From: Agrococcus sp. KRD186
GTDB taxonomy: Bacteria; Actinomycetota; Actinomycetes; Actinomycetales; Microbacteriaceae
Assembly: GCF_017168255.1 (NCBI RefSeq)
Contig: NZ_JABFAP010000001.1
Location: forward strand, 2,179,847-2,241,682
Direction of reading: 5' to 3'
Length of the DNA stretch: 61,836 bases
In this document: piece by piece, positions 5,677 through 49,533 of the stretch
Position numbering within the stretch: the first letter of the stretch is position 1
How the letters are laid out: each line of letters begins with the position of its first letter
The notes under the pieces: generated by a model
What the model was told of the DNA's origin: nothing
Databases searched by the model: none
What the model saw: only the letters and a program-made list of their open reading frames with translations
Translations under genes and position numbers: made by a program

Positions 5677-6198
5677 CTACGGCTTCGTCATGTCCCAGGC
5701 GTGGTGCTCGAGGTCGTGCAGCGCGTACTCCAGCAGCGTGCGCACCGTGAACACCGAGCCGTTGGAGCGCCTGCCTGGCCGATCCCACGCGTCTGCGGGC
5801 ACCGCATCCGCCGCATTGGCCAGGCTCGCCGCGGCGAGGTCGAGCTCGGCGGCCACGCGCTCGGGATCCTGGCTCGCGTAGTCGTCGTCGACGGCCGCCC
5901 GGTCCTGATCCCAGTCCGCGAACTCGGGGTCGTCCTCGTGCAGCAGCTGGTGCAGCCGGGTCTCCATCACGCCGCACACGTCGCGCACATGCGCCGCGTA
6001 CTCGAGCGGCGACCAGGTGGCGTCATCCGGGCGCTCGGTGACCGCTGCCCCGTGCAGACGCTGGTGCATCGCTGCGGCGGCATGGCGGATGCGGCGGCCG
6101 AGGTCGTCGCGATCGACCTCCAGCGGGTCGAACCCGCACTCGGGGCAGCGCTCGTGCAGCACCCACGTCCAGTCCTTGGTATCGGGCTCGATCGGCAT
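5677..6198 (-). CDS. DinB-family protein (mycothiol/bacillithiol-transferase-like fold)
   Basis: A 173-residue four-helix DinB-like protein. The conserved metal-site pattern is visible: WSPLEYAAHVRDV early on and LLEYALHDLEHHAWDM at the C-terminus (the triad His residues). The N-terminal HERCPECGFDP holds a CxxC pair that could bind a metal. Related actinobacterial proteins are thiol-dependent S-transferases or isomerases using mycothiol; no substrate can be assigned. It is convergent with the F420-type reductase, three bases apart. Confidence 0.8.
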   Translation of the reverse strand: MPIEPDTKDWTWVLHERCPECGFDPLEVDRDDLGRRIRHAAAAMHQRLHGAAVTERPDDATWSPLEYAAHVRDVCGVMETRLHQLLHEDDPEFADWDQDRAAVDDDYASQDPERVAAELDLAAASLANAADAVPADAWDRPGRRSNGSVFTVRTLLEYALHDLEHHAWDMTKP

Positions 6199-6295
6199 GG
6201 CTTCACTCTCTCACGCGCCCACCGGCCCGTTCGAGGCGATGGATGCGCGCATGCACGGCCCGCATCGTGGTCGCGCGGCCGCCGCGCAGCTTCGC

Positions 6296-6991
6296 CTACT
6301 CGCCGAGTGCCGCCTGAATCGCCGCTTCGATGTCGCTGATCTGCGACAGCTCCAGCCGCTCCCCGTCGATGAAGATCGTCGGCGTCCGGTCGATGCCGAG
6401 GGCGATGCCGGCCTGGAAATCCTGTTCGACGCGGGCGAGCGTGGCGGGATCCTCGATCGCTGCGTCGTACGCTGCCATGTCGAGACCCAGCTGCTCGGCG
6501 TAGCCTCTGAAGCGTCCGGCCTCGGAGACCTGCGCCTCGCCCCACTCGGCCTGCGTCTCGAACATGCGCTGGTACATCGGCTCGAACGCATCCTGCTGCG
6601 CAGCGGCCTCGACGGCGACCGCCGCGTTGCCGGAGTTGAAGTGCCCCGGCAACGGGAAGTACCGCACCGCGAACGTCACCTCGTCGCCGTACTCCCCGCG
6701 GAGGGCTTCCATCGTCGGGTACACGGCGCCGCACGCCTCGCACTCGAAGTCGAGGAACTCGACCACCACCGGGGCGTCCGGGCCGGCGTCGTCCAAGATG
6801 TGCGTCGACTCCTCCACGAGTGGCGGCGCCGCTGAGGGCGACGCGGCAGACTCGCTCGACTCCCCGCTCGCTGGAGGCGGGCTACCGCCCTCCCACGGCC
6901 GAACGATGAGCAGCACCGCTGCGACGACGATCGCTACAGCAGCGACGATGATGGAGACAGCGATGAGGGGGCGAGTGCGCACCTTCCTCAC
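6296..6991 (-). CDS. Membrane-anchored DsbA-like thiol-disulfide oxidoreductase
   Basis: A 231-residue protein with a positively charged N-terminus, one membrane anchor (a run of Val, Ile and Ala, about residues 7-30), a Ser/Pro/Glu-rich linker, then a thioredoxin-4 domain. The redox motif CEAC sits in VEFLDFECEACGAVYP and the cis-Pro loop is RTPTIFIDG. The active site should face outside the membrane, oxidising or shuffling disulfides of secreted proteins. The start is uncertain: the GTG codons at 6991 and 6982 are both possible and neither has a well-spaced ribosome site. It lies next to the copper block, where Cys-rich partners are plausible. Confidence 0.8.
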   Translation of the reverse strand: MRKVRTRPLIAVSIIVAAVAIVVAAVLLIVRPWEGGSPPPASGESSESAASPSAAPPLVEESTHILDDAGPDAPVVVEFLDFECEACGAVYPTMEALRGEYGDEVTFAVRYFPLPGHFNSGNAAVAVEAAAQQDAFEPMYQRMFETQAEWGEAQVSEAGRFRGYAEQLGLDMAAYDAAIEDPATLARVEQDFQAGIALGIDRTPTIFIDGERLELSQISDIEAAIQAALGE

Positions 6992-8642: not shown

Positions 8643-8857
8643 GTGAACAGGGCAGGCCTGTTCGGCAACGCGGCCACCTGCGTTCTGTGTCAGCAAGCAC
8701 TGCACGAGGACCTGTCGAGCATCCGGGGCTGAGCCGTATTGCTGTGGATGCGAACGGACGCCTGACGGTCACGAGCGAGGGAATTGTGGAGCGAACGGCT
8801 GTGGAGCAAGCGGTCAGCGAGGCCGGAATCGATCTCGTGGCGTGGCAGACGCCTTGA
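8643..8857 (+). pseudogene. Frameshifted heavy-metal-associated (HMA) copper chaperone
   Basis: From a GTG at 8643 the frame reads VNRAGLFGNAATCVLCQQAL with a CxxC motif, then EDLSSIRG and a stop at 8730-8732. In the frame offset by one base the HMA fold continues: GLSRIAVDANGRLTVTSEG, then AVEQAVSEAGIDLV, ending at 8857. Adding one G in the GGGG run at 8725-8728 would restore a complete domain of about 70 residues of the CopZ type. Its stop overlaps the next gene's GTG by 16 bases, as expected for the first cistron of the copD-copA operon. Either the chaperone is dead, or this is a homopolymer sequencing error, or it is read by slippage. Confidence 0.7.
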
Positions 8858-10911
8858 CGTCGCAGCCGTCGACAAGGCCCTTAGCGGCGAGCCCCGTCCG
8901 CAGGCGAACGACCCGCTTCCGCCGCACCGGCGGGCTCGCTCTGACGTGCGCGCTCGTCTGCCTGCTGGTGATCGCTCCCGCGGTCGTGACGACGGTGCAG
9001 GTGGGAGTCGAGCCGTACGAACTGCTCCATACCTCCTTCCCCGGCCTCGACGTGGCAGTGCTGACCGCGGCCGGGCAGAGTATTGCGGATCTGTTCGCGG
9101 TGGTGACCTTCGGGGCGCTCTTGTCGGCGCTGTTCCTGCGCGATGCGCGAGGACGCGACGCGGGACAGCTGGGCGATGTGTTCGAGATGGCTGTGCTGCG
9201 GGTTTCCTCAGCCGGTTGGGCAACCGTGTCTGCGGCGATGATCCTGCTTGAGATGCTGGACAGCAGCGGGCTGCCGCCGTCCCAGTTGAGCGAGCCCAAT
9301 GCGATCCCGTTCCTCTACGAGGCGAGCGCGTTCCCGAAGGCATGGACGGTCACGCTGATCGCGGCACTGCTGACGTGGATAGCGAGCGTGTTCGCCGAGC
9401 GGTGGACGGGACTCCTGATCCCCTTGTGGGCGTCCTGCTTCGGTATCCTCGCTCCTGTCGTCGTGGGTCAGATCCTCGTGGGCCCGAACCACGACCTGGG
9501 CGGCGACGCCGGCGCGTACCAGAGCCTGCTGACGAACGCCGCATTCGGCGTGGTGCTGGTCGCCATCATGCGCGTCGCGACCGGGCGTCCGATCGCCCCG
9601 GAGATCATGACCCGCATCTTCTGGATCTTGGCCGTGGCGCTCCCGGTGGTCGCGGCGTCCGATCTGCTGCTGGCCTGGTTCAAGCTCGCCGGCACGGGAC
9701 TGCTCGACTCGGTCACCGGATGGCAGATCATCGGTCGCTGGGCATTCCTGGGGATCTTCGTCGCGGCATACCTCGGCTGGCGTGTGCTGGGGAAGCGTCG
9801 ACTCAGCGCCACGTGGCCGGCGCTGGCGGCAACGGTCGGCATCGCCGGATGGGTGGGGATGACCGCGGCGATGACCCGGTTCCCTCCGCCGCAGTACTTC
9901 GTCCCGACGAGCATCTCCCAGGTGTTCATGGGCTTCGAGGTCGAGGTCCCGCCGACGGTGCTCGTGCTGCTGACCAACTGGCGACCGAACCTGCTCTTCC
10001 TCCTGCTCGCGATCGCGGCGGTCACCGTCTATCTGTGGGCAGTGCGGAACCTGCGCAGCCGGGGTGACGCGTGGCCGCTCGGGCGCACGCTGTCCTGGAT
10101 CGCTGGCTGGGGCGTGGTCGTGTTCGTGACCAGCTCCGGACTCGGCAAGTACTCCGCGCCGGACTTCGGGGTCCACATGGTCGTGCACATGAGCCTGAAC
10201 ATGCTCGCCCCGGTCCTCCTCGTCATGGGCGGCATCGCCACGTTGCTGCTGCGCGCGACGCGATCGAGCCCGACTGCCCCTGCGGGCGTGCACGACTGGA
10301 TCATGTGGGCGCTGCGCTGGCGTGTGCTGCGCTGGATCTACAACCCCCTCGTCATCTTCGTCCTGTTCGTCGGCTCCTACTACGGGCTGTACTTCTCGGG
10401 GATCTTCGGCGAGTTCATGCGTTTCCATTGGGCGCACCAGCTCATGAACGTGCATTTCCTCATCATCGGCTACCTGTTCTACAGCCTCGTGATCGGCGTG
10501 GACAGACCACCGCTCCCGCTCCCGCACATCGGCAAGCTCGGATTCGTGCTGGCGGCGATGCCGTTCCACGCGTTCTTCGGCGTCATCCTGATGTCGGGCG
10601 GCGACATCATCGCCGAGAACTTCTATCGGAATCTCGGACTGCCGTGGGCCGACCTGGAGGCATCGCAGTACTTCGCCGGAGGGGTGGCATGGGCGGGCGG
10701 CGAGCTCCCGCTGCTCCTGGTGATCATCGCGCTCGGGATCCAATGGTCGCGCCAGGACGCTAAGGATGCTCGACGCAGCGACCGGCACCAGGACACCGGC
10801 CACGCCGACGACCGCGACGCGTACAACCAGATGCTCGAGAAGCTCGCGGCGCGAAGCGCCGGCCCACGCCCGGCACCGACGCGGACATCCGCGACCGAGA
10901 GGACTGAATGA
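8842..10911 (+). CDS. CopD-CtaG fusion membrane protein
   Basis: A 689-residue polytopic protein. The N-terminal half (about residues 20-330) looks like a CopD copper-resistance permease, with repeated hydrophobic helices. The C-terminal half (about 370-650) is caa3_CtaG-like, with HMVVHMSLNMLAPVLLVMG, YYGLYFSGIFGE, AHQLMNVHFLIIGYLFY, AMPFHAFFGVILMSGG and a His/Met-rich membrane core suited to copper. Fusions of this type are common in actinobacteria and are linked to copper import or to delivery to secreted cuproenzymes. It starts at GTG 8842 inside the chaperone remnant and overlaps copA by ATGA. Confidence 0.85.
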   Translation: MADALTSQPSTRPLAASPVRRRTTRFRRTGGLALTCALVCLLVIAPAVVTTVQVGVEPYELLHTSFPGLDVAVLTAAGQSIADLFAVVTFGALLSALFLRDARGRDAGQLGDVFEMAVLRVSSAGWATVSAAMILLEMLDSSGLPPSQLSEPNAIPFLYEASAFPKAWTVTLIAALLTWIASVFAERWTGLLIPLWASCFGILAPVVVGQILVGPNHDLGGDAGAYQSLLTNAAFGVVLVAIMRVATGRPIAPEIMTRIFWILAVALPVVAASDLLLAWFKLAGTGLLDSVTGWQIIGRWAFLGIFVAAYLGWRVLGKRRLSATWPALAATVGIAGWVGMTAAMTRFPPPQYFVPTSISQVFMGFEVEVPPTVLVLLTNWRPNLLFLLLAIAAVTVYLWAVRNLRSRGDAWPLGRTLSWIAGWGVVVFVTSSGLGKYSAPDFGVHMVVHMSLNMLAPVLLVMGGIATLLLRATRSSPTAPAGVHDWIMWALRWRVLRWIYNPLVIFVLFVGSYYGLYFSGIFGEFMRFHWAHQLMNVHFLIIGYLFYSLVIGVDRPPLPLPHIGKLGFVLAAMPFHAFFGVILMSGGDIIAENFYRNLGLPWADLEASQYFAGGVAWAGGELPLLLVIIALGIQWSRQDAKDARRSDRHQDTGHADDRDAYNQMLEKLAARSAGPRPAPTRTSATERTE

Positions 10912-48721: not shown

Positions 48722-48879
48722 GGGTGCCGTTCCTCTCGTGTGGCGTGCATTCGCTGCCACCGATCATGCCGCGCCGCCCGCCGTTCGCGCTTCTCCAATC
48801 CTGCTTGATCGCGTTGCACTCTCCACAACCTCAGTATGCGATCGAGCAGTACCACGCAGAGCGGGTCTATGACTGAAGG

Positions 48880-49326
48880 ATGGCGCCGCGAGAAGGGTTG
48901 GAGCAAGACGCTCCGCGAAGTCAAGCGCTGCAGGCTTGGGTGGATGAGTCGATCCAGGCCCGGGCAAGGAGCTACATCCTGGCCGCCGTCGTCGCATCCG
49001 ACGACAGCATGGCTCTCGATCGTGCGCGAGCCACAATGCGCGCCCTGGTGCATCGACCCCGTCGACGCCTGCACTGGCGAGACGAGTCAGCGAACGACCG
49101 ACGTCGCATCATCACCGCCATCGCCGCGCTCGGAGTATCACCGCCATCGCCGCGCTCGGAGTCCGCGCAGAGGTGGTGGTCGCAACCGGGATGGACCCGA
49201 AGCGTCAGGAACGGGCGAGGCGGAAATGCCTGGAGCGTCTCCTGCATCGGTTGTCTCTGCTGAACGTGGAACTCGTCTGGATCGAATCGCGCGGTCAGGT
49301 CGGTGCTGCACGAGCTGCCCCTGTGA
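48880..49326 (+). pseudogene. Decayed DUF3800-like gene with 26-bp tandem duplication
   Basis: The first part reads LQAWVDESIQARARSYILAAVVAS, then LHWRDESANDRRRIITAIAALGV, with the DES motif and LHWRD of DUF3800-like (RNase-H-fold) proteins. A 26-bp tandem duplication (49111-49136 and 49137-49162) shifts the frame. Removing one copy continues the protein as RAEVVVATGMDPKRQERARRKCLERLLHRLSLLNVELVWIESRG. A last piece, VRSVLHELPL then stop at 49326, lies in yet another frame and resembles the usual C-terminus, so a middle segment of some 50 residues seems deleted near 49295. The gene is non-functional unless the first frameshift reverts and the deletion is tolerated. Confidence 0.7.
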
Positions 49327-49334
49327 CAACGCGA

Positions 49335-49396
49335 AAGCCGGGTCCCGTCATGCGGCGGGTTCCCGGCTTCACTTCCTCGCACCCCTCAGGGGGAGG
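49335..49396 (+). ncRNA. Two stacked hairpins after the DUF3800-like gene, candidate structured RNA
   Basis: Nine bases after the gene's stop: hairpin 1 is AAGCCGGG (49335-49342) paired with CCCGGCTT (49362-49369), with an inner CCCG/CGGG stem. Hairpin 2 is CCTC-GCA-CCCC-TCA-GGGG-GAGG (49375-49396). Candidate structured RNAs linked to DUF3800 genes (the DUF3800 RNA motifs) are known as a class; membership of this element is an inference. A plain double terminator is the alternative. Confidence 0.5.
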
Positions 49397-49533
49397 CTCA
49401 TCGTCAGTATACCGAATGCGCGTACGCAGTGAGTGGCGCAGTGACTCATGTGGAGAACGCTCAAGTTCGGCGCCCAACGAGATGGCGCGCCCGGCGAAGC
49501 TGGAGCAACGCCGGGCGCGCCTGGGGGCCCGCG

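Follow-up and report, generated by a model that had tools for sequence, protein, structure and literature searches.

A broken DUF3800-like gene of Agrococcus sp. KRD186 is followed by two hairpins, raising the question of whether these belong to a structured RNA that works together with the protein. The window examined here is the whole stretch of 61,836 nt (GCF_017168255.1, NZ_JABFAP010000001.1, positions 2,179,847-2,241,682, forward strand), in which a sequence-only reading had placed two adjacent hairpins at 49335-49396 and had proposed that they may form a structured RNA directly downstream of the gene and one system with its protein. The hairpins are present and more stable than chance: the segment 49310-49420 folds on the plus strand at -50.4 kcal/mol, where shuffled sequences average -38.8 (z -3.38), and 0 of 200 shuffles were as good. 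The DUF3800-like remnant ends in frame with TGA at 49324-49326, so that the hairpins begin nine bases downstream, as had been stated. The position was thus read correctly, but the RNA is encoded by the other strand, the gene beside it is a pseudogene, and the protein branch to which that gene belongs falls below the Pfam cut-off. A covariance model built from the relatives described below matches the window at 49323-49411 on the minus strand with 83.4 bits (E 2.7e-17; this copy is itself in the training set). Since minus is the transcribed strand of the structure in relatives, the window RNA would start at about 49400 and end at about 49327, and the locus reads as follows.

49327..49400, minus strand: conserved structured small RNA of about 75 nt; ends approximate, start placed from the -10 box.
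49406..49411, minus strand: promoter-like -10 box TATACT of the small RNA; TANNNT stands at a fixed distance in relatives.
49375..49396, minus strand: hairpin P2, with outer CCUC/GAGG, inner CCCC/GGGG, loop UGA and bulge UGC.
49331..49374, minus strand: linker AA, long hairpin P3 and tail UUUCGC (helices 3 and 4 of the covariation analysis).
48880..49326, plus strand: broken DUF3800-like gene remnant, about residues 2-117 of 187 and a short C-terminal tail.
49111..49162, plus strand: 26-bp tandem duplication that shifts the reading frame, from repeat search and sequence.
49285..49300, plus strand: approximate junction of an internal deletion, where alignment to the intact relative L002 stops (49293).
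48868..48873, plus strand: possible -10 (TATGAC) of the DUF3800-like gene, proposed from sequence, six bases before the ATG of a putative leaderless start.
48805..49480, no strand: interval holding gene and RNA relative to congeners without them (nine empty congeneric loci among 17 compared).

A profile of relatives matches the remnant in two pieces, 2-71 and 55-117 within 187 positions. Beyond 49293 only the short C-terminal tail remains; the internal deletion takes the C-terminal third of the gene, including a near-invariant Asp159. The spacing from TATGAC to ATG is also seen by eye in three Microbacterium relatives (L026-L028). A strong inverted repeat at 49484-49521, 3' of a symporter-like gene, is probably the terminator of that gene and lies outside the RNA element.

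To place the RNA among relatives we searched with DNA, with protein and with covariance models. The DNA search, run over 398 family genomes, picked up 21 genomes in addition to Agrococcus sp. KRD186. Seven were strong (L002-L008, E<=6e-5) and all seven lay directly 3' of the stop codon of a DUF3800-like gene, six of these genes being open and one (L006) frame-shifted. The other fourteen (L009-L022) were short partial matches, and no DUF3800-like gene stood beside the five whose contexts were inspected (L009, L016, L018, L020 and L021). We then used 68 loci picked by a protein-only search of species genomes, in which the RNA played no part in the choice and which we take to span Microbacteriaceae, Micrococcaceae, Promicromonosporaceae, Nocardioidaceae, Pseudonocardiaceae, Streptomycetaceae, Coriobacteriia and others. 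The same element is visible on most of their 3' sides. A first model, R1, with a 16-sequence seed that includes 14 of the 68 loci, detected the RNA in 46 of the 54 non-seed loci at E<0.01; a wider model, R2, trained on matches from the 68 loci, gave a full-length convergent match in 62 of 68 at E<=5e-4. The covariance search after homologous genes that had been suggested thus returned the RNA at most of them.

The RNA 3' end falls between -10 and +20 nt from the stop codon at 57 of the 62 full-length convergent loci (median -1.5 nt), the others being L040, L052, L058, L059 and L061; the broken frame of L058 continues past the RNA. Between stop codon and RNA, at about 6126-6230, L040 carries several tandem copies of a short GGACAGCGCACTC-like unit that resembles the conserved tail of the RNA. 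Partial matches were found at L064 and L068 (E 0.035 and 0.014), a weak full-length match at L086 (E 0.11), and at L060, alone among the 68, an RNA on the gene's own strand (6651-6746, E 0.002) with its own TACACT box. R2 found no RNA at L090 and L091, where only N-terminal gene fragments are left. It had been considered that the hairpins might be missing after intact homologues; instead, all 57 loci whose frame is open over 165-240 residues carry the RNA, 55 of them full-length and convergent, with L068 partial and L060 on the same strand. More than one RNA occurs at five of the 68 loci: at L062, L065 and L074 the additional copies have no gene of their own and stand upstream of the gene or at a distance from it, at L077 a second copy stands by eye beside an apparent gene tail, and L043 is the fifth. 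The Atopobiaceae contig of L066 holds, besides its DUF3800-like gene and RNA, two ROOL RNAs (780-1352 and 8837-9416; 204.6 and 238 bits).

Across the 398 family genomes R2 found 28 places in 27 genomes, 26 of which have a single RNA match, and the protein profile A7 had matches in 53 genomes. Twenty-one of the 28 RNA places adjoin a protein match, and all 21 are convergent. RNA stands without a detected gene at L129, L133, L136, L138 and L139, of which L136, L138 and L139 resemble the gene-bearing L135 in the bases adjoining the RNA; the solo model matches L140 and L142 resemble plain terminators by eye. From the protein side, 23 places with E<1e-28 have the RNA in 17 cases from the genome scan and in 3 more from a later R2 run; it was seen by eye at L153, which R2 missed, and at L156, to which R2 was not applied, and no RNA is visible at L154, whose frame continues past the expected end. 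Sixteen protein-only regions were fetched and 11 run through R2, giving 6 matches at E<=0.01, 3 at E<=0.25 and 2 without a match. Several weaker protein relatives carry RNA variants of the same kind by eye, and the more distant relatives L162 and L166 show no clear RNA by eye. Computation therefore supports the RNA as a regular partner of the gene in this protein branch.

The structure of the RNA was assessed on an alignment of 71 copies (69 distinct) fitted to the structure, with 500 shuffles. Standard pairs fill 92.2% of pair cells, and none of five covariation measures was reached by any shuffle (0/500). Compensatory changes, whose absence would have spoken against the hairpins, are seen at 19 of 23 pairs, with 178 double-change cells against 55.5 in shuffles, counts that are not of independent events because some of the 71 copies are close relatives. 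In P2 (helices 1 and 2) 86.9 and 88.1% of cells are paired, with double changes at all 8 pairs; in P3 (helices 3 and 4) 94.1 and 96.0%, with double changes at 11 of 15. Relatedness among sequences can lift such measures above those of shuffles, and the structure guided this alignment, so most weight goes to the gap-free part of P3, whose columns 67-73 show the exchanges A-U/G-C, G-C/C-G, G-C/A-U and C-G/U-A. An unfitted MAFFT alignment of 40 sequences has double changes at 6 of 12 predicted pairs, and the linker GAAGU is invariant in 40 of 40 aligned close relatives.

The DUF3800-like gene and the small RNA converge, the RNA being encoded on minus. Read on minus, the wobbles are 133 of G-U type against 30 of A-C type (one near-invariant U-G pair makes up 63 of the 133), and the core is more stable on minus in 47 of 66 sequences; the window copy is among the 19 that are less stable, folding slightly better alone on plus (-37.0) than on minus (-35.3). 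Of the 71 copies, 56 have a TANNNT box 13-20 nt before P2, whereas four control windows gave 3, 4, 0 and 1 of 71, and 12 of the 56 box-bearing copies have TTG at 16-19 nt from the box (controls 1-3). Close relatives among the copies mean that the strand and box counts, too, are not of independent events. The window copy has its TATACT at 49411-49406, without TTG at the expected spacing. These results support by computation the strand of the RNA and its promoter-like box; the RNA would start from a putative sigma70-type promoter of its own, be read toward the gene and end about at the gene's stop codon. A plus-strand reading of the hairpins was rejected on the evidence of relatives, from wobbles, energies of folding and the promoter-like box. 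Some folds also pair 5' leader and tail in a longer closing helix, P1; the 5' strand of this helix would run into the -10 region, and P1 was therefore set aside.

The protein branch lies below the curated 21-bit cut-off of Pfam DUF3800 (PF12686), the first member reaching 13.0 bits and the L008 protein 14.7 bits. At E<=1, PF12686 matches 9 of 46 relatives of intact length (best E 6.3e-4) and RuvX matches 6 (best 0.0049); the L002 and L003 proteins and the open part of the window remnant have no PF12686 match at this threshold. PADLOC and NCBIfam gave no useful name for five proteins, and a sequence search against solved structures returned one chance-like match (E 0.26). The AF2 model of the L063 protein has a pLDDT of 95.6 and a pTM of 0.90. 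Foldseek against solved structures placed human MutSbeta first (E 5.3e-4), a protein with an RNase H-like domain, followed mainly by RNase HI chains from E 3e-3 at a TM of about 0.3, weak matches; in the viral set an uncharacterised siphovirus protein (E 2.6e-5) was followed by a phage ribonuclease H (E 2e-4). Invariant residues among the 46 relatives include Asp11, Glu12, Glu115 and Arg117, and Asp159 is kept in at least 90%. On the model, the best explanation is a DUF3800-like protein of about 190 residues with a predicted RNase H-type fold, probably nuclease-like. The excerpted text of PMC10910872 assigns an RNase H fold to DUF3800, places it beside a Cas12a2 branch and terms the RNAs next to its genes putative ncRNAs, and within that excerpt no role is stated for them.

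We next compared the RNA with what has been described. The full series of DUF3800 RNA motifs runs from I to XI, and the original survey reportedly found structured RNAs beside DUF3800 genes. The window RNA class, too, is a conserved structured RNA adjoining DUF3800-type genes. There was no Rfam 15 match at gathering in the whole 61.8-kb window, and at the locus, up to E=10, nothing of a DUF3800 family and nothing reaching the gathering score; none of 13 relatives matched at gathering and none of 19 further loci at E<=1. The RNA therefore differs from the DUF3800 motifs in lacking an Rfam model match, as its protein branch does in lying mostly below the Pfam cut-off. As an undescribed candidate it holds up against Rfam, with the DUF3800 models standing without a positive control because RF02969 (DUF3800-I) matched 0 of 198 genomes of the phylum and 0 of 14 controls. 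The Rfam motifs include DUF3800-I (RF02969) and DUF3800-IX (RF02968) according to the excerpted part of PMC11701678. Among the matches listed from the open-licence literature, titles and abstracts held no description of this RNA class. A structured RNA beside DUF3800 is thus a known kind, and this RNA class is absent from Rfam 15.

Other pairs of protein and RNA offer points of comparison. The abiF RNA is likewise a conserved motif beside a protein gene; in the part of PMC12373285 available it binds and neutralises a toxic protein (RCd22-AbiF) and so is an RNA antitoxin, the protein family is linked to Cas13 ancestors and the RNA lies upstream with two repeats. The window-type cassette differs in having a predicted RNase H-like fold and an RNA that is convergent and usually single. 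Toxin-antitoxin systems of the ToxIN type (type III) resemble it in joining a nuclease, as proposed here, to a structured RNA, and in the extra RNA copies at a few loci; unlike them it has no upstream tandem repeat and no co-transcription, and the ToxIN-type toxin has a protein fold different from the DUF3800-like one. TnpB/omegaRNA and IS110 bridge-RNA elements resemble it in that a protein of RNase H/RuvC-type fold has its cognate RNA where the gene ends. In contrast to these, no element ends, target duplication or guide segment were found for the window-type cassette, and the RNA copies are alike along their whole length in aligned relatives.

The fate of gene and RNA is not symmetrical in this branch: 0 of 57 intact-length genes lack the RNA, while RNA sometimes stands without a gene. 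A broken gene accompanies a full-length RNA match in the window, at L006, L055, L058, L069 and L089 and in an internally deleted copy in L043. Decay without a full RNA also occurs, with a broken gene and partial RNA at L064 and fragments without RNA at L090 and L091. Retention of the RNA need not mean function because the breaks may be recent or assembly errors.

That protein and RNA form one system, as had been proposed, agrees with their joint placement. Between any two of the Arthrobacter loci L029, L031, L033, L050 and L030, the common sequence begins near the start codon, ends 75-150 nt beyond the stop and is set in different flanks, apart from a second common stretch, farther downstream, in L031 and L033; L032 is the same site as L029. 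Computation thus supports a cassette-like placement of gene and RNA in some relatives. Other groups, for example Curtobacterium and Nonomuraea, share flanks and therefore appear to have inherited it in place. At the window site, we looked in 24 congeneric genomes for the DUF1801-like neighbour (a name taken from a Pfam match below threshold) and compared 17 loci; at nine of these the DUF1801-like and symporter-like neighbours (the latter a reading of the ORF) are present with no cassette between them. The nine congeners in the 398-genome set gave no protein or RNA match. Exact insertion ends, inverted ends and target duplications were not found by repeat search, at empty sites or in relatives' flanks; in the comparison with empty sites the intergenic region is too variable for exact ends or a target duplication to show. 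No phage copies of the relatives were found at E<=1e-5 and no viral-contig copy was confirmed with one peptide pattern. A serine recombinase gene lies at 595-1287 of L003 (same contig and place as L024), just beyond the RNA. We also scanned the nearest called gene on each side of 66 loci (L090 and L091 excluded; 112 genes of <=700 residues), using a home-made caller and no control set. PADLOC matches were scattered in the 25 of 46 families seen, with mads models in 3 and JetD, RmrA, PDC-S04 and SoFic in 1 each; the Pfam families were mostly housekeeping in the 25 of 106 seen, with Resolvase in 5 of 112 genes. The suggestion that the system is mobile or defensive thus gains indirect backing for mobility from the Arthrobacter cassette, and the neighbour scan did not show the defensive part.

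Taken together, our tentative reading, to which we give not quite an even chance, is that the window holds the remnant of a two-part cassette in which a DUF3800-like protein and a two-hairpin RNA of about 75 nt would form one RNP, most likely RNA-antitoxin-like. Protein and RNA would bind each other and the RNA would restrain or license the nuclease; in the most likely version it would be an RNA antitoxin neutralising the protein by direct binding, type III-like, by analogy with the abiF RNA. The protein would be released when transcription fails, for instance during phage infection. In this genome the protein would have been lost and the RNA would be a leftover, possibly still transcribed. 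Four points favour the antitoxin role: in this branch no intact-length gene was found without the RNA, the RNA can outlive the gene, some loci have several RNA copies, and the abiF RNA turned out to be an antitoxin. Counting against it, the repeats of a classical type III antitoxin lie upstream of the toxin and are transcribed together with it, whereas the RNA here is usually single and convergent; some more distant relatives and canonical loci show no clear RNA by eye, and genes also decay without a full RNA being kept; the defence matches among neighbours are scattered, and the predicted fold resembles solved nucleases weakly (RNase HI E 3e-3).

Two other readings also give the pair a joint function, and each seems to us improbable, about one chance in a handful. 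Protein and RNA could be an RNA-guided or RNA-dependent mobile element, with the protein as transposase or nuclease, the RNA as an omega-like or bridge-like cofactor and the cassette as the element. The gene and RNA common to Arthrobacter genomes with otherwise different flanks, the absence of the cassette from the window site in nine congeners and the predicted RNase H-like fold would suit such an element, as would the position of DUF3800 beside a Cas12a2 branch (excerpt of PMC10910872) and internally deleted copies (the window, the L043 relic) that keep the gene's two ends and the RNA like non-autonomous elements. Yet no target duplication or inverted ends were found, the RNA has no long variable guide-like segment, 26 of 27 genomes have a single RNA match, no relative was found in phages or confirmed in viral contigs, and several groups share flanks as if inherited in place. 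Alternatively the RNA could activate or target the nuclease rather than act as an antitoxin, making the RNP a sensor or defence effector. The same association and structure evidence applies to such an effector, and the linker GAAGU, conserved in 40 of 40 close relatives, would fit it; however, an RNA in trans could then suffice for intact genes, which is not seen among the 57 of intact length, and defence-model matches among neighbours are only scattered.

The remaining readings rest on where the RNA lies. With its 3' end at the stop codon (median -1.5 nt), the RNA would be complementary to the tail of any mRNA that reads through, and it could be a cis-antisense regulator that controls by base pairing, type I-like, with the structure serving both; the one-strand preference of wobbles and energies, the L060 RNA on the gene's own strand and the extra copies upstream of or away from the gene (L065, L062, L074) make this quite unlikely. 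An ordinary bidirectional terminator between convergent genes would explain a GC-rich hairpin followed by UUU, the plain-terminator look of the solo matches L140 and L142 and the slightly better plus-strand fold of the window copy alone, but a conserved linker, a promoter-like box reading into the structure, a wobble bias to one strand and covariation of the second hairpin are all unexpected from it, and we regard it as very improbable indeed.

The arrangement may extend beyond this branch. Ten of 13 canonical DUF3800 loci from outside the class search have a convergent two-hairpin RNA of another sequence class: L023, which is this genome's second DUF3800 gene, and the proteobacterial plasmid loci L167-L172 and L191-L193. 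This RNA has AARUGG near its start and UUCGCUU at its end, and is more stable on minus in 10 of 10 with wobbles of 26:1. Its covariation is suggestive at n=10, with 97.3% paired and 5 double-change cells against 1.1; the 2 pairs with a double change were reached by 57 of 500 shuffles. L194 has no anchor and part of a similar RNA at the edge of its stretch, Brevibacillus L173 has a candidate RNA, and Ligilactobacillus L174 has no evident RNA by eye. The Streptomyces plasmid relatives L175 and L176, of the window-type branch, carry the window-type RNA. In 197 genomes of the class PF12686 was found at 15 places; about 9 of the 14 besides L023 show a plausible convergent RNA by eye, and L178, L179, L183, L186 and L190 show none evident by eye. 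The pairing is thus not universal, since L162, L166, L174 and five canonical loci show no clear RNA by eye. The L023 RNA (2206-2289, convergent) weakly matches the Xanthomonas sRNA sX12 (RF02231; 26.1 bits, E 0.008), far below the 106-bit gathering score. According to the excerpted part of PMC3771888, sX12 is needed for full virulence of its host.

For this one class of a known kind of RNA, our work adds the strand, a promoter-like box, approximate ends, structure, protein partner and position relative to the gene. With the boundaries worked out, the pair can be cloned sensibly and tested for binding, toxicity and neutralisation. The asymmetry of gene and RNA in the branch yields a specific prediction, and abiF is a precedent for a motif of this sort acting as an RNA antitoxin. 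We are led to speculate, with more doubt than confidence, that DUF3800-type proteins across bacterial phyla could supply the protein to a large and so far unrecognised class of cassettes, either RNP toxin-antitoxin systems or RNA-licensed nucleases. The RNA half would be convergent, promoter-driven and end at the stop codon, and the known DUF3800 motifs, perhaps with orphan sRNAs such as sX12, would belong to it.
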